64,000 nt of DNA from Synergistaceae bacterium. Its GTDB lineage: Bacteria; Synergistota; Synergistia; Synergistales; Synergistaceae. Shown here one piece after another: positions 7,949-14,628 of this stretch (position 1 is the first letter of the stretch; each line of letters opens with the position of its first letter). Position numbers and translations under genes: made by a program. The notes beneath the pieces were generated by a model, which was given only the letters and a program-made list of their open reading frames with translations, had not been told where the DNA came from and searched no databases. The DNA lies in the NCBI GenBank assembly GCA_021372895.1, contig JAJFTP010000027.1, positions 1-64,000 on the forward strand, in the 5' to 3' direction.

Positions 7949-8111
7949 AAATATCTCTCCCGCCGGATATGTCCTCAAATCAAATGCATGTAGAAATATA
8001 CCAGATAATTATACATTGAACATACCGTTGGCGGAAAGGTTACGCAGCGGCAAATAAGTAAGGTGCGCAGGGCATCGTTTTATCGGGTCAGCTGCGTGTC
8101 AAAAAAATAAC
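7949..8111 (+). other. Intergenic region between divergent mltG and the serine operon
   Basis: AT-rich spacer. A TATAAT-like hexamer on the minus strand near 8010-8020 could belong to an mltG promoter, but no convincing -35 is seen. No open reading frame or structured element is recognised before the serine-operon promoter at 8112. Confidence 0.4.
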
Positions 8112-8140
8112 TTGACATTTAAGAGCATTGAGAGTATATA
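8112..8140 (+). promoter_or_regulatory. Consensus sigma-70 promoter of the serine operon
   Basis: Perfect TTGACA (8112-8117), exactly 17 bases, then TATATA (8135-8140). Transcription is expected near 8147, leaving a leader of about 265 bases before the first structural gene at 8413. Confidence 0.85.
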
Positions 8141-8181
8141 TGTTAACCATTCAGCGGATACGCGTGAGAGGAGTGTTTTTA

Positions 8182-8295
8182 GTGAGAGATTTTATGGTTC
8201 TAACGTATGCAAGTTCATCAATGTCTCTCTCTTCCGGCACTTCTTCATGTGGCGGCTCCGGTTGTGATAGCCGGTCTCGAAGCGTATACCGTTGA
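8182..8295 (+). CDS. Serine-rich leader peptide of the serine operon
   Basis: A 37-residue open frame from GTG at 8182 to TGA at 8293, with AGGAG (8169-8173) 8 bases upstream. An internal ATG is at 8194. Twelve of the 33 residues after that ATG are Ser, two are Cys and four are Gly; the core reads YASSSMSLSSGTSSCGGSGC. Serine codons of both UCN and AGY boxes are used. Serine is the product of the downstream enzymes, and Gly and Cys derive from it. The last codons (8271-8284) also form the 5' arm of an antiterminator. By analogy with trp and his leaders, it probably measures charged tRNA-Ser. Not previously annotated as far as I can tell; inference from sequence. Confidence 0.75.
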   Translation: MRDFMVLTYASSSMSLSSGTSSCGGSGCDSRSRSVYR

Positions 8296-8350
8296 AATAG
8301 AAACATAGTAATAGTTTTTTTAGCAAATAACGGGGCGTTTCGGAGATCGG
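8271..8350 (+). promoter_or_regulatory. Predicted antiterminator pairing of the serine leader
   Basis: CCGGTCTCGAAGCG (8271-8284) is complementary to CGTTTCGGAGATCGG (8336-8350): 14 pairs, two G-U in the core pairing region plus one wobble near the base, and one bulged G at 8342. The 3' strand includes 8345-8350, which is the 5' arm of the terminator, so the two structures exclude each other. A competing small hairpin (8258-8261 with 8271-8274) could sequester the first strand. Confidence 0.7.
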
Positions 8351-8375
8351 AAGATTTTTTTCCGGTCTTTTTTTT
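8345..8375 (+). terminator. Attenuator terminator ahead of the serine operon
   Basis: GATCGGAA (8345-8352), a 7-base loop, TTCCGGTC (8360-8367), then eight T (8368-8375). It is a full intrinsic terminator located 37 bases before the aminotransferase start and after the leader peptide, so it must be read through for expression. Confidence 0.85.
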
Positions 8376-8412
8376 ATCTTTTTAACACACTATAAAAGGG
8401 GGATTTATATTA

Positions 8413-9558
8413 ATGAACACGAGATACCTTTTAACACCTGGCCCGGTAGAGCTTCCTGCAGAAGTACTGCGGACGGGGGCGAAGCCTCTTATCGGACATC
8501 GCTGCCCCGCTTTTTCAGAGCTTTTCGCAAGGATCGAGAAAAACCTTAACTCTCTTTTAAAAAGCGAAGGCCCGATAATCATTCTTCCTGCGTCTGGCAC
8601 CGGCGCACTGGAGTGCATGTCCGTTAATTTCCTCGGCAAGGGGGATAAATTCATATCGGTCTCATGCGGCATATTCGGCAACAGATTCCGTGAGATAGCC
8701 GAAAGGACCGGGGCTCAGGGAGTTTATGTCGATGTCGAGTTCGGCGAAGCTGTCAAAGCAACAACAGTGGCGGAAGCCGTGAAGAAAAACCCAGGATGCA
8801 AAGCGATTTTGATTACCCATAACGAAACATCAACGGGTGTCGTAAATCCTATTAAAGATATAATCGCTGCCCTGCCCGAGGAAAATCGTCCGCTTGTACT
8901 TGTTGACGGAGTCAGTTCTGTCGGCGCAATGGAATGTTTCCCCGAGGAATGGGGGATCGATGCGATAGGCACCGCATCGCAGAAAGGGCTCCTTACCCCT
9001 CCGGGGCTTGGGCTTGTGTGGCTCTCTAAAAGGGCGTGGGCAGCTCTTGACGGCAATATCTGTCCTAGCTACAGCTATGATCTGAAGCTGCACAGGAAAG
9101 ATCTCGAGGCAAAAGCTCCGGCTAATCCGTTTACTCCGCCGATTTCTCTTTATTATGCGCTTGATGAGGCATTGAAAGAGATACTTGAAGTCGGAACAGG
9201 TATCTGGTTTGAAACACATAAGCGCTATGCAAGTGCCCTTGCGGCCGGACTTAAGGGGCTGGGGTTTGAGCTTCTTGTCGATGAAGAAGAAGCGCGTTCC
9301 CCAGGCGTTACAGCGTTCAGATTCCCCAGGGGAGATACGGAAGCAATACGCAAAAAACTTCGCGCGATGGGCATAGAAACAGCCGGCGGGCAGGGGAAAT
9401 ATAAGGGACAGCTTATCAGGGTGGCGCATTACAACAACTGGGGCTGGCCCGAACTCTGCATCATACTCGGTGCTCTTTACGGGGCGGCGGATCTTTCCGG
9501 CACGGTAAAGGCGGACTTTCTTGCCGATGCATGGAAGATATGGATCAAGGAGGCATAA
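8413..9558 (+). CDS. Class-V PLP aminotransferase, probable phosphoserine (serine-pathway) aminotransferase
   Basis: Fold-type I PLP enzyme, 381 aa, of the alanine-glyoxylate/serine-pyruvate aminotransferase group. It opens with YLLTPGPVELPAEVL. The cofactor aspartate lies in LVLVDGVSSVGAM and the PLP lysine is about K191 in IGTASQKGLLTPPGLG. Enzymes of this group act as 3-phosphohydroxypyruvate:glutamate aminotransferase in some bacteria and archaea that lack classical SerC. The attenuated leader upstream and serA 5 bases downstream make that the likely role here. Serine-glyoxylate aminotransferase activity is the alternative. Confidence 0.85.
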   Translation: MNTRYLLTPGPVELPAEVLRTGAKPLIGHRCPAFSELFARIEKNLNSLLKSEGPIIILPASGTGALECMSVNFLGKGDKFISVSCGIFGNRFREIAERTGAQGVYVDVEFGEAVKATTVAEAVKKNPGCKAILITHNETSTGVVNPIKDIIAALPEENRPLVLVDGVSSVGAMECFPEEWGIDAIGTASQKGLLTPPGLGLVWLSKRAWAALDGNICPSYSYDLKLHRKDLEAKAPANPFTPPISLYYALDEALKEILEVGTGIWFETHKRYASALAAGLKGLGFELLVDEEEARSPGVTAFRFPRGDTEAIRKKLRAMGIETAGGQGKYKGQLIRVAHYNNWGWPELCIILGALYGAADLSGTVKADFLADAWKIWIKEA

Positions 9559-9563
9559 ACGTT

Positions 9564-11213
9564 ATGGCTGAACAGGTCAAATGGAAAGTTCTTGTTGCGG
9601 AGCCTCTTGGCGAGGCCGGACTCGCAATGCTGCGGGAAGCGCCGGACATAGAATTGATGGAAGCTGTCGGCATCAGCCGGGAAGATTTCCTTAAAAAACT
9701 GCCGGATGTGGATGCCGTGCTTACAAGGAGCGGCACAAAAATGGATGAAGAAGCTTTGAACGCTGCGACAAAGCTTAAGGTCATCGCAAGGGCAGGCGTA
9801 GGCGTCGATAACGTGGATGTCCCTGTGGCAAGCCGCAAGGGTGTTGTCGTGATAAATGCGCCGACGGGAAATACACTTGCCGCCGCAGAGTTTACTATGG
9901 CCCTGATGCTTGCCCTCGTGCGAAAAGTGCCCCAGGCGTTTGCTTCGCTCAGGAGCGGAAAATGGGATAAAAAACGTTTCTCAGGGCATCAACTGAGCGG
10001 GAAAAAAATACTTGTAATAGGGCTTGGCAGGATAGGCATAGCCGTTGCTCAGCGCTGCCGCGCGTTTGGAATGGAGGTCTCAGCCTATGACCCGTATACT
10101 CCGAGGAAAAAAGCTGAATCTCTTGGCATCCCTCTTCGGGAAGACCTTTCAGACGCCCTATCCGTTGCTGATATCGTAACACTTCACATCCCGCTTACAA
10201 CAGATACGGCAAACTTGATCGATGAAAAAATGTTGCGTGCCTTCAAGCACGGGGCCTACCTTATCAACTGCGCGCGCGGCGGCTTGATCGATGAAAAGGC
10301 CGCGGCCGATGCAGTAAGGGAAGGGCGTCTCGCAGGCATAGCATTCGATGTCTACACTTCTGAGCCACTTGTGGAAGGCCATCCGTTCCTTGCCGGAGAT
10401 ATTGAAGACAGGATAGTGATCACGCCGCACCTCGGCGCAAGCACAGAAGAAGCCCAGGCAGAGGTGGCAAGAATTGCGGCGACAAACATGATCGCCGCCC
10501 TTCGCGGCGAGCAATATGAACATGCGGTAAACCTTCCGTTTATAGAACAGAAACTCAATAAGGCACAGAAGGCGTATCTCGAATTGTCGCGCAGAATGGG
10601 TGTGCTCGGCGCAAAGCTTGCTGAAGTTGAATGCGGCGCCGTGCAGAACTGCCATATTATGCTTCGCGGGGATCTATTTGCGGAGGACGAGCCTCTTCCA
10701 AACCGTCTCTCTTCCTTCAGCATAGGATTTTTAAAGGGGCTATTGGAAGTAAGCCGCGGGTCTGAGGTTACATATATGCTGGCTCCCCTGCTTGCAAAGG
10801 ACAGCGGTCTTACGGTAGAAGAAAGTATCGGCGAGCCCAAGACATATAAAAATACCATTGAAGTCACATTGGATGCGGAAAAGTGTAAAATTTCGCTTAT
10901 AGGTACTATAACAGAAGAGGGACGTATGCGCATAGTCAAGGTCAACGACTACTGGGTCGATTTTGTCCCTACCGGCAAACTGCTGCTTTTTCAGAACCAT
11001 GACAGGCCAGGGGTTATCGGCAAGGTTGGCAATCTGCTGGGAGACGCCAAGGTCAACATCGCAAACTTTGCACTTGGGCGCAAGGATAACAGCGGGCTTG
11101 CTTTAGGCGCGCTTGAAATCGACGGGACTCTTAATGATACGTTAAAACAGAAACTTGAAAAGACCGGTGATATGCTTTGGCTTACATTTATCGACTTCTC
11201 TGAGGTAAAATAA
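9564..11213 (+). CDS. serA: D-3-phosphoglycerate dehydrogenase, long ACT-containing form
   Basis: Oxidises 3-phosphoglycerate to 3-phosphohydroxypyruvate, the committed step of serine synthesis. The start is ATG 9564, with AAGGAGG 10 bases upstream, giving 549 aa; the frame is open from 9531 but those codons belong to the previous gene's end. The Rossmann motif VIGLGRIGIAVAQR is near residue 151. The catalytic Arg is in NCARGGLIDE and the His in ITPHLGASTEEAQ. An intervening (ASB) domain is followed by a C-terminal ACT domain (HDRPGVIGKVGNLLGDAKVN), the usual serine feedback site. The enzyme is therefore probably controlled by serine at two levels. Confidence 0.96.
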   Translation: MAEQVKWKVLVAEPLGEAGLAMLREAPDIELMEAVGISREDFLKKLPDVDAVLTRSGTKMDEEALNAATKLKVIARAGVGVDNVDVPVASRKGVVVINAPTGNTLAAAEFTMALMLALVRKVPQAFASLRSGKWDKKRFSGHQLSGKKILVIGLGRIGIAVAQRCRAFGMEVSAYDPYTPRKKAESLGIPLREDLSDALSVADIVTLHIPLTTDTANLIDEKMLRAFKHGAYLINCARGGLIDEKAAADAVREGRLAGIAFDVYTSEPLVEGHPFLAGDIEDRIVITPHLGASTEEAQAEVARIAATNMIAALRGEQYEHAVNLPFIEQKLNKAQKAYLELSRRMGVLGAKLAEVECGAVQNCHIMLRGDLFAEDEPLPNRLSSFSIGFLKGLLEVSRGSEVTYMLAPLLAKDSGLTVEESIGEPKTYKNTIEVTLDAEKCKISLIGTITEEGRMRIVKVNDYWVDFVPTGKLLLFQNHDRPGVIGKVGNLLGDAKVNIANFALGRKDNSGLALGALEIDGTLNDTLKQKLEKTGDMLWLTFIDFSEVK

Positions 11214-11214
11214 G

Positions 11215-11859
11215 GTGAAGTTTTTCGTGATCCGCCATGGTGAGACATCATGGAACGCCGATGGGCGTTTTCAGGGGCAGATGGACGTTGAGCTCAATGT
11301 AAAGGGTCTAGAGCAGGCGGAACTCCTTGCAAAAAGGCTGGCAGGACATAAATTTGAAGCTATAATCACAAGCCCGCTTGCCCGTGCTGAGGCAACCGCA
11401 AAAAAAATTGCTGAGCTCTCCGATTATAATGATTTTATTGTGGATGAAGGGTTCACCGAGATAAACCACGGTGACTGGGAAGGCCGCCTTGCAGACGAAA
11501 TAGCGCGGGAATGGACTGAAACTCTGGTCGATTGGCACACCAAGCCGGAGACAGTAAAGATGCCCGGAGATAGAGGAGAAAGTCTAGAAGATGTAAAGGA
11601 AAGAGCCGTCAAAGCGGCAGATGCCATTGCAAAGAGATATACGGGGGACGTGCTGCTCGTATCTCATGACGCAGTAATAAAAGTGCTGCTTTGCCACTGG
11701 CTTGGGGCCCCGCTGTCAAGCTTCTGGCGTTTTCAGGTCTCTAACTGCAGTATTACCGTTGTTGAAGCTGTTCCGGGCAAGGGGTTCCGTATGCTTCTTA
11801 TGGGCGACGCAGCGCATATAGGCAGTGCTTTTGATCGTCCGGAACAGAAAGGGCTATAA
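11215..11859 (+). CDS. Histidine phosphatase family protein, candidate phosphoserine phosphatase
   Basis: 214 aa, starting at GTG 11215, two bases after the serA stop. The catalytic RHG motif is FFVIRHGETSWN (His8), and the second His is in LLVSHDAVIKVL. This superfamily includes phosphoglycerate mutases, CobC-type phosphatases and the metal-independent phosphoserine phosphatases described in Hydrogenobacter. Third gene of a serine operon in which no HAD-type SerB is seen, so phosphoserine phosphatase is the most economical assignment. CobC-like or broad-specificity sugar phosphatase activity remains possible. Confidence 0.8.
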   Translation: MKFFVIRHGETSWNADGRFQGQMDVELNVKGLEQAELLAKRLAGHKFEAIITSPLARAEATAKKIAELSDYNDFIVDEGFTEINHGDWEGRLADEIAREWTETLVDWHTKPETVKMPGDRGESLEDVKERAVKAADAIAKRYTGDVLLVSHDAVIKVLLCHWLGAPLSSFWRFQVSNCSITVVEAVPGKGFRMLLMGDAAHIGSAFDRPEQKGL

Positions 11860-11969: not shown

Positions 11970-12599
11970 CTATCCGAGGATCTGCTCCATAAGGTCTGCG
12001 ATCTCGAGAGAGTTATGGCTGATAGCGTCGAGGGCCTTATACATTCTGGTTTTGCAGTTCTCCATGAAGGTTTCATCGGACAGTCCAGGCATGTTGATAC
12101 GGACATTATATGCTGCCGCTTTTCCTGCTGCTTCGGCAAGAAGAGCTGCGCTTCCGGCATCGCTTACAGTGTTTGGGTTGCCATGTCTCGCCGCGAGGAG
12201 CGCTAGCTCCGCTACCTCTGCACAAGCCTCAAGCGTACGGAGCGGAACTTCCGTAGCAAGCTGTGAGGCATTGCCAATTGCCTTTTTACGTGCTGCCTTC
12301 TCCTCATCTGTTGCCTTTGGCATCTTCATCGCCGCCATGAAAATGTTAAAGGATTCTGTATCCTTGTTCATGAGATCCACAAACTTGGCGCGCAGCGGCT
12401 CGCTTTTTGCCACGGTTTCTTCCATAACGGCCCAGTTGTCCTTGTATTTTTCCTTGCCCACGGTAAGATTTGCAACCATTGAGACGAGTGCCGAGCCAAG
12501 CGCACCGCATAGAGCCGCAACGCTCCCGCCGCCCGGTGCAGGTGAGTTTGAAGCAAGCTCATCAAGGAATGCTCGTATTTCCATTTTTTCAAATTCCAT
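11970..12599 (-). CDS. fchA: Formimidoyltetrahydrofolate cyclodeaminase
   Basis: All-helical FTCD_C family enzyme, 209 aa. It releases ammonia from 5-formimino-THF and gives 5,10-methenyl-THF. The signature SNSPAPGGGSVAALCGALG near residue 17 and FLDELAS are typical. It follows hutU by 10 bases on the same strand. With FtcD encoded separately on the opposite strand, the two halves of the mammalian fusion protein FTCD are split here. The methenyl-THF formed can feed formate/ATP generation in fermenters. Confidence 0.93.
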   Translation of the reverse strand: MEFEKMEIRAFLDELASNSPAPGGGSVAALCGALGSALVSMVANLTVGKEKYKDNWAVMEETVAKSEPLRAKFVDLMNKDTESFNIFMAAMKMPKATDEEKAARKKAIGNASQLATEVPLRTLEACAEVAELALLAARHGNPNTVSDAGSAALLAEAAGKAAAYNVRINMPGLSDETFMENCKTRMYKALDAISHNSLEIADLMEQILG

Positions 12600-12609
12600 T
12601 GTTTTTCCC

Positions 12610-14628
12610 CTATTTACTTTCTACAAGTTTGGTAAGATATTCTTCATCAGCAATGAACGGAACTGTTACATGCCCGTCGCTGCGCTTCTTGTTGAACTCT
12701 GCAATTGTTGAGAGTGCATGCTCGTTTCTTGCCCAGGCGCGCCTTGCAACGCCGCTTATAACGTCCCAGCTCATAGAAGATCTGATTATATTGTCGATCC
12801 TCTGGCTGCCGTCAAGCACAAGTCCGAATCCGCCGTTGATAGCCTTGCCTGTCCCGACTCCTCCGCCGTTATGGAGAGTGACCATGCTCATACCGCGTGC
12901 GCAGTTTCCGGCGAAGCAGTGGATCGCCATATCAGCCATAACATTGCTTCCGTCTTTGATGTTAGATGTTTCGCGGAACGGAGAGTCTGTCCCTGATACG
13001 TCGTGGTGGTCCCTGCCTATCATTACAGGTCCTATGAGTCCTGTGCGGACCATTTCGTTAAACTTAAGGGCGATCTTCATCCTTCCCTCTTCATCCTGAT
13101 AGAGGATACGGCACTGTGTTCCTACGACGAGTTTGTTCTTGTCTGCGTCGCGGATCCATGCCCAGTTGTCGTAATCCTGGAATCTGCGGTTCCGGTCGAT
13201 ACAGTCCATGGCGGCCTTGTCTGTCTTCCGGAGGTCTTCCGGATCACGGCTTAAGCAGCACCAGCGGAACGGCCCATATCCATAGTCGAAGAGCAGCGGT
13301 CCCATTATATCTTCCACGTAGGACGGGAAAATAAACCCTTCGTATGTATCTTTCCCGTTCTTTGCTATCTCTGTAACGCCGGCGTCAAATACCGCGCGCA
13401 TAAATGAGTTGCCATAGTCGAAGAAATATGTTCCTTTTTCAACAAGGGCCTTGATGAGTTCGAAGTGTTTTCTGAGTGTTTTGTCTACTAGCTTGCAGAA
13501 CTGTTCCTTGTCCTCACTGAGCAGTCTTGTACGCTCTTCGAATGTGATCCCCTGCGGGCAGTAACCTCCGTCATAGGCAGCGTGACATGATGTCTGGTCG
13601 GAGAGCAGTTCTATCTTTATGTCTTTATCGAGCGCATACTGGAGCAGGTCGACTATATTTCCCTCATAAGCTATAGAAAGCGGCTCGCCGGCGTCCATTG
13701 CCTCCTGTGCCCATTTGAATGCTTCAGAGAGGTCCTTTGTCCTTTTGCTGATCCAGCCCTGACTGTGGCGTGTATCGATACGAGAAGGATCCACTTCCGC
13801 TATTATTGCGGCGGCACCTGCTATTTCGGCGGCCTTGGGCTGTGCGCCGCTCATTCCTCCCAGTCCTGAAGAGACAAACAGGTGTCCCGCCAGTCCTTTG
13901 CCTTCAGGAAGATGGAATTTTTTTCTGCCTGCGTTGAGCAGGGTATTATAGGTTCCGTGGACTATGCCTTGCGGACCGATGTACATCCAGCCACCGGCCG
14001 TCATCTGCCCGTAGTTGGCCACGCCCAGTGCCGCTGCCCTTGCAAAATCCTTGGGATTATCAAACATGCCCACCATAAGTCCATTGGTTAGTATTACTCT
14101 TGGTGCGGATGGATTTGAACGGAAGAGGCCCAGCGGATGTCCGGACTGAACTACGAGTGTCTGATCCTCTGTCAGTATCTCCAGATATTTCTTTATAAGC
14201 CGATACTGCATCCAGTTTTGGCAGACCTGTCCTGTCTCCCCGTAGGTGACCAGTTCGTAAGGATAGAGAGCAACCTCAAAATCGAGATTGTTGTCTATCA
14301 TAACCTGAAATGCTTTGCCCTCTGTGCACCGCCCCTTATACTCATCGATCGGCTTGCCGTAAAGACGTCCCTGCGGACGGAAACGATAACCGTAGATACG
14401 CCCGTGCTCCCTGTATTCCTCAAGGAATTCCGGTGCAATTTCCTTGTGGTACTTTTCGGGTATGTAACGGAGGGCGTTCTTCAGTGCCAGGACCGTCTCC
14501 TTGTCATTAAGTACCTGTCCCCTGTTCGGAGCTCTTCTTATTCCCGGCTCGAATTCTGCCTTTGGCGGCAGTCCTTCAGGGAATTCCAGACAAATCTCCA
14601 ATGCCTCGCCAGTTTTTGGATCATACAT
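12610..14628 (-). CDS. hutU: Urocanate hydratase, long form
   Basis: NAD+-dependent hydration of urocanate to imidazolonepropionate. Length is 672 aa, well above the ~555 aa of the Pseudomonas/Bacillus enzyme and close to the ~676 aa animal type. NAD-binding segments include SSGLGGMSGAQPKAAEIAG and GGVGTGKAINGGFGLVLDGS. ATG at 14628 lies 9 bases after GGAG. It is transcribed divergently from hutH, with a 219-base shared upstream region, and continues into fchA. Confidence 0.95.
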   Translation of the reverse strand: MYDPKTGEALEICLEFPEGLPPKAEFEPGIRRAPNRGQVLNDKETVLALKNALRYIPEKYHKEIAPEFLEEYREHGRIYGYRFRPQGRLYGKPIDEYKGRCTEGKAFQVMIDNNLDFEVALYPYELVTYGETGQVCQNWMQYRLIKKYLEILTEDQTLVVQSGHPLGLFRSNPSAPRVILTNGLMVGMFDNPKDFARAAALGVANYGQMTAGGWMYIGPQGIVHGTYNTLLNAGRKKFHLPEGKGLAGHLFVSSGLGGMSGAQPKAAEIAGAAAIIAEVDPSRIDTRHSQGWISKRTKDLSEAFKWAQEAMDAGEPLSIAYEGNIVDLLQYALDKDIKIELLSDQTSCHAAYDGGYCPQGITFEERTRLLSEDKEQFCKLVDKTLRKHFELIKALVEKGTYFFDYGNSFMRAVFDAGVTEIAKNGKDTYEGFIFPSYVEDIMGPLLFDYGYGPFRWCCLSRDPEDLRKTDKAAMDCIDRNRRFQDYDNWAWIRDADKNKLVVGTQCRILYQDEEGRMKIALKFNEMVRTGLIGPVMIGRDHHDVSGTDSPFRETSNIKDGSNVMADMAIHCFAGNCARGMSMVTLHNGGGVGTGKAINGGFGLVLDGSQRIDNIIRSSMSWDVISGVARRAWARNEHALSTIAEFNKKRSDGHVTVPFIADEEYLTKLVESK

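Follow-up and report, generated by a model that had tools for sequence, protein, structure and literature searches.

A putative serine-sensing leader-peptide attenuator upstream of a serine biosynthesis operon in Synergistota

Leader-peptide attenuation is known for only a few amino acids, mostly from Proteobacteria and Actinobacteria and some Firmicutes, and transcription attenuators of this kind have been described for the trp, his, leu, thr, ilv, and phe operons. Serine T-boxes are found in Firmicutes, where the leader responds to uncharged tRNA-Ser and switches a terminator. Here we describe a leader upstream of a serine operon in a stretch of 64,000 nucleotides (the window) from a Synergistaceae genome (GenBank assembly GCA_021372895.1, contig JAJFTP010000027.1). 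Like the attenuators of the trp, his, leu, thr, ilv, and phe operons, it combines a short translated leader carrying repeated codons for the pathway product, an antiterminator that overlaps both the end of the leader and the 5' arm of the terminator, and an intrinsic terminator before the first gene. It differs from them in that serine would be the sensed amino acid, in its phylum, Synergistota, and in its Ser codons, a mixture dominated by TCN that extends over about 16 codons in this species. Serine T-boxes are further removed, as they bind the tRNA directly without translation, and a T-box match is absent here.

Other related systems share single features with this locus. The serC element of alpha-proteobacteria (RF00517; PMC1273637) also lies upstream of a serine-synthesis operon, serC-serA, with a presumed role in regulating serine synthesis, but its two stems would hide a ribosome-binding site, and neither a leader peptide nor a terminator has been described for it. 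Cys leader peptides, found before cys operons of Actinobacteria (PMC1262725) and as uORFC-8-2 before cysS in Rhodobacterales (PMC8632094), are likewise encoded by leader ORFs that contain codons for the amino acid under regulation, and the cysS leader has an attenuator terminator, yet they concern cysteine, other genes, and other phyla. In Bacillus subtilis, sinR acts as a TCN-codon serine sensor, in which slow translation of Ser codons reports serine shortage (PMC3862929); the principle of sensing is similar, but slow translation there directly lowers SinR synthesis, and no leader peptide or attenuator RNA is involved. According to a 2010 paper, leader peptides were at that time known only from Proteobacteria and Actinobacteria, to which it added his leaders in Firmicutes (PMC2965389). 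Histidine genes of Synergistetes have been treated through the repressor HisR (PMC9413887), and Thermovirga lienii was part of a 2019 scan that reported 11 uORFs (PMC6429828); the word serine is absent from the main text of that paper, and an unnamed listing of a serine leader in its supplement is possible. In line with the first-pass annotation, which was made from the sequence alone and knew of no such case, we found no serine leader-peptide attenuator in the open-access literature that the search covered. The proposed mechanism is itself classic ribosome-mediated attenuation and already known; what looks new to this literature is its use for sensing serine and its occurrence in Synergistota.

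The leader elements occupy positions 8112 to 8412 of the window, between an mltG-like gene on the minus strand (start at 7978) and the divergent serine operon on the plus strand, the first gene of which starts at 8413. Direct reading confirmed the sigma-70-type promoter TTGACA-17-TATATA at 8112-8140, with the -35 hexamer at 8112-8117, the -10 hexamer at 8135-8140, and a spacer of 17 nt. A simple promoter scan missed this site, as TATATA fails its sixth-base rule, and gave 8382-8411 instead. Despite this, the promoter at 8112-8140 is credible because 38 of 57 orthologous leaders carry a TTGAC-like/TATAA pair upstream, compared to 0.5% of shuffled sequences. The leader ORF (8182-8295; VRDFMVLTYASSSMSLSSGTSSCGGSGCDSRSRSVYR) has 37 codons, 12 of which encode Ser, starts with GTG at 8182, and ends with TGA at 8293-8295; its Shine-Dalgarno sequence, AGGAG at 8169-8173, lies 8 nt upstream of the start codon, and similar sequences precede most leader starts in relatives. 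All these features were found on re-reading as first annotated. Nine of the Ser codons form a run at 8212-8259 (region 1), which Ser enrichment and a scan of ribosome positions mark as the probable sensing part.

An intrinsic terminator (8343-8377) is located between the leader ORF and the first structural gene, where the first-pass annotation had placed it (8345-8375). On recomputation, its stem (8343-8369; regions 3 and 4, or 3:4) has 12 bp with -13.2 kcal/mol and is followed by a T run. The alternative helix that had been proposed is real as well: region 2 (8271-8284), inside the end of the leader ORF, forms 14 pairs, with one bulged base, with region 3 (8336-8350), which overlaps the 5' arm of the terminator. 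The best duplex containing this 2:3 helix reaches -28.6 kcal/mol, against a mean of -19.6 kcal/mol for shuffled sequences (p 0.01). The assignment of regions 2 and 3 as the two antiterminator strands is further based on pair counts in relatives and, for region 2, on the ribosome scan.

These elements suggest the following mechanism. Transcription would start after TATATA, and the leader ORF would be translated behind RNA polymerase. When seryl-tRNA is scarce, the ribosome would stall in the Ser run at 8212-8259, leaving region 2 free to pair with region 3 once the latter has been made; this pairing would take the 5' arm of the terminator, and the operon would be transcribed. When seryl-tRNA is plentiful, the ribosome would reach the stop codon at 8293 and cover region 2, whereupon region 3 would pair with region 4 and transcription would stop at the T run. 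Ribosome stalling, a kinetic preference for 2:3, and a response to serine are predictions of this scheme. Sequence and comparison establish the leader ORF, its Ser specificity, the terminator, the alternative helix, covariation, and linkage to the operon. The locus thus has the structural characteristics of a ribosome-mediated attenuator, i.e. a leader ORF with a ribosome-binding site and Ser codons, a terminator, a conserved antiterminator, albeit weak or of another form in one family group, and downstream pathway genes. Very probably, the element monitors how much charged tRNA-Ser is available and controls the serine operon by ribosome-mediated transcription attenuation.

The effect of ribosome position was modelled for the window, with RNA made up to the terminator loop. 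The modelled probability of the 2:3 helix was ~0.4 at the first three Ser codons, ~0.6-0.8 with the A-site codon from 8224 to 8260, and zero from codon 8266 on. In this model, the nine Ser codons at 8212-8259 are therefore on the permissive side of the switch point and the stop codon on the other side, so that the first-pass claim that a stall at Ser codons frees 8271-8284, and a ribosome at the stop codon masks it, holds within the model. At equilibrium, the terminator of the window prevails for almost every ribosome position, with a probability of 3:4 that is mostly 0.98-1.0 and at its lowest 0.73. Since the terminator is the more stable structure at equilibrium, read-through requires that 2:3 forms first, and we infer a kinetic switch, as in classic attenuators.

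To compare the leader in relatives, gene 1 of the operon was used to search 188 genomes of the phylum, and the upstream regions of 63 non-redundant loci from the same order, with a gene 1 identity of at least 45%, were analysed; the relatives named here are metagenome-assembled genomes. The highest Ser count in 15 stop-free codons averaged 7.0 on the coding strand and 4.2 on both the reverse strand and dinucleotide shuffles (Wilcoxon, coding versus reverse strand, 2e-10), and windows with at least 6 Ser in 15 codons occurred in 48 of the 63 loci, compared to 4 of 63 on the reverse strand. Ser-rich short ORFs precede the operon in most genera, for example MRRPAYLVFNGISSSSLSSGVSSSCGGSGCHCRSRNVYPMNRENN, MNCKTISKSVSSSSLSSGLSSCGWSSPRRRSQSE, MNKLRALICFGSLCFSSSSSASSTGASSGMGWFPASED, and MNFVCLFGILGTGSSSSSSSGWSGRAGLPVPAGKAPQP. 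Between genera the Ser run is kept, whereas the remaining peptide varies, including its length and C-terminus. Conservation of Ser-codon runs upstream of the orthologous operon, which the first-pass annotation had put forward as a check, thus extends across the order, without the other peptide residues. In the genus of the window and its sister genus, alignment gaps have lengths divisible by three within the ORF but not behind it, and a peptide search gave a strong match to the leader at only one place per genome in 9 genomes. In 14 further genomes, serA has no orthologous aminotransferase beside it, and in 11 of these a Ser-rich leader lies directly before serA, therefore the leader goes with serA and the pathway. 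The L129-L139 loci are of this type, with the leader immediately 5' of serA.

The element is missing in part of the material. The loci of the outgroup order (L076-L078) have no leader, and there the aminotransferase directly follows another gene. Within the order, the Ser run or the whole leader is missing from a few members (L010, L012, L030, L047, L049, and L126-L128). By eye, L010 (genome G141) has kept the terminator and an antiterminator strand upstream of the aminotransferase, with an ORF of only 9 codons (MKLLISRSI). In L012 (G142) the element is lost from this position, and L126-L128 have likewise lost everything. L010 and L012 are decayed versions of the leader element. In one genus (L013, L016, L029, L042, L019, L023, and L039), the leader ATG follows TATAA by only ~9 nt without a clear Shine-Dalgarno sequence, so we propose that this leader is probably translated from a leaderless mRNA.

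Covariation in both helices was another check suggested at the outset, and pairing is indeed kept in relatives through compensatory changes. For 49 loci with a clear terminator, a ribosome was placed on the median Ser codon, and we determined the duplex between the leader left free downstream and the 5' arm of the terminator plus its flank. This antiterminator duplex was overall stronger than in shuffled sequences (Wilcoxon 2e-6), and individually so (p<0.05) in 19 of the 49 loci, including 8 of 8 from the genus of the window and its sister genus. The leader-side strand is mostly found in the last codons before the stop codon, and its sequence differs by genus: CCGGUCUCGAAGCG in the window, CCGGUCCCGAAACG in the sister genus, CGUCUCAAAGCG in others, and GGUUCCCCGCCUC and AGGGCUCCC in further genera in the same role. 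Among eleven distinct rows of aligned blocks, 93.5% of the cells were paired in 2:3 and 100% in 3:4, percentages that are biased upward as the blocks were cut by hand and chosen for complementarity. The exchanges weigh more: U-A/C-G and A-U/G-C occur in 2:3, and A-U/G-C in 3:4. At the seventh pair of 2:3, U-A changes to C-G with a matching change in 3:4, thus three strands changed together.

Some families fold differently. In the GSSSSSGWSGRAG group (L059, L063, and L066-L071), a simple 2:3 helix was rejected, as it was no better than in shuffled sequences. The Ser codons there make up one side of a conserved hairpin (CUUCCGG..UCCGGAAG), a second hairpin follows it, and switching may proceed through a hairpin cascade. 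In the GWSGRAG group, the fold is more complex and not reducible to one helix.

The first-pass annotation had called the leader Ser/Gly/Cys-rich, and it might accordingly sense the whole serine family. Glycine and cysteine are made from serine, and the CGGSGC block, with its Gly and Cys codons at 8248-8265 on the edge of the switch, is nearly invariant in, and specific to, the genus of the window and its sister genus. In the ribosome model, stalls at codons 8248-8260 would still leave 2:3 free, so that the Gly and Cys codons could stall the ribosome permissively too. Against this, the block may be kept for RNA pairing, and among the 20 amino acids only Ser is concentrated upstream of the operon in the 63 loci: on the coding versus the reverse strand, Gly reached 3.9 versus 3.6 and Cys 2.1 versus 1.9, i.e. 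hardly enriched, with Ser at 7.0 versus 4.2. The Ser part of the annotation hence applies across relatives, and sensing of Gly and Cys as a general rule was rejected on composition. For the window itself, we consider sensing of all three amino acids unlikely. Equally doubtful is the fuller scenario of a first serine-specific leader attenuator that is ancestral to the order, has travelled with serA, and now responds to Ser, Gly, and Cys through CGGSGC in the genus of the window and its sister genus.

A Ser/Gly/Cys-rich ORF could also encode a functional peptide, such as a small protein or the precursor of a modified peptide, with its own terminator and only incidentally located before the operon; in the sister genus, the stretch CGGSGCxCRSRNV is nearly invariant. 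However, nothing outside the Ser residues is conserved between genera, length and C-terminus vary, there is covariation between the C-terminal codons and the arm of the terminator, and the ORF follows serA when the operon is rearranged, all of which makes this explanation extremely improbable. Alternatively, a metabolite riboswitch, a T-box, or a protein-bound leader might control the terminator, with the Ser-rich ORF as a by-product. A terminator and an alternative helix alone would fit these classes too, and T-boxes with Ser specifiers and the alpha-proteobacterial serC element are known precedents. Yet Rfam searches at gathering and permissive thresholds gave no match to any family in the window or 12 relatives, whether a riboswitch, a T-box, or the serC leader (RF00517), and it is the Ser codons, rather than any aptamer-like core, that are conserved between genera, so that control of this type is very unlikely. 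The idea of a regulon with the same leader on serS, glyA, or cysE found no support for the first two, as their upstream regions show no Ser excess on the coding strand. Upstream of cysE, Ser counts are slightly higher, within stretches of long overlapping reading frames.

Leader-peptide attenuation as the preferred reading would extend this form of control to serine and to Synergistota. Since it is conserved throughout the order, the leader is not a chance local feature, and it would provide a clear predicted serine-responsive switch for a phylum with few studies of gene regulation. Because different tRNAs read the two codon sets for serine, the element is also a good test bed for the relation between codon choice and attenuator sensitivity. 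Of the leader Ser codons, 84% are TCN, compared to 77% in the downstream gene.

The downstream genes had been annotated as making serine; a curated model supports this for SerA, and similarity and context support it for its two neighbours. Gene 1 (8413-9558, plus strand) encodes a class-V PLP aminotransferase that matches no NCBIfam equivalog above cut-off, and is probably a phosphoserine transaminase, a putative substrate that we infer because of the operon context and because this genome has no canonical SerC above cut-off. Gene 2 (9564-11213, plus strand; ORF open from 9531) encodes SerA, 3-phosphoglycerate dehydrogenase, with 566 bits against TIGR01327 (cut-off 454). Gene 3 (11215-11859, plus strand) encodes a histidine-phosphatase family protein; its NCBIfam matches are all below cut-offs, and its best solved relative, phosphoserine phosphatase 1 (PDB 4ij5), points to a metal-independent phosphoserine phosphatase. 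The aminotransferase and SerA genes are adjacent in 77 of 78 loci, with gene 3 next wherever the locus is long enough. Among 12 genomes tested, canonical SerC above cut-off was absent from 10, including that of the window, and canonical SerB (serB) from all 12. The SerA match, the gene order, and these absences lend good support to the view that the complete serine pathway is encoded in the operon. Serine hydroxymethyltransferase (PF00464) was not found in the near-complete genomes G138, G128, and G022, which is unusual for serine-making bacteria. Convergent with the operon, the minus strand at 11970-14628 carries genes for an FchA-like methenyltetrahydrofolate cyclohydrolase (below the model cut-off) and urocanate hydratase, which suggests histidine degradation tied to one-carbon metabolism.
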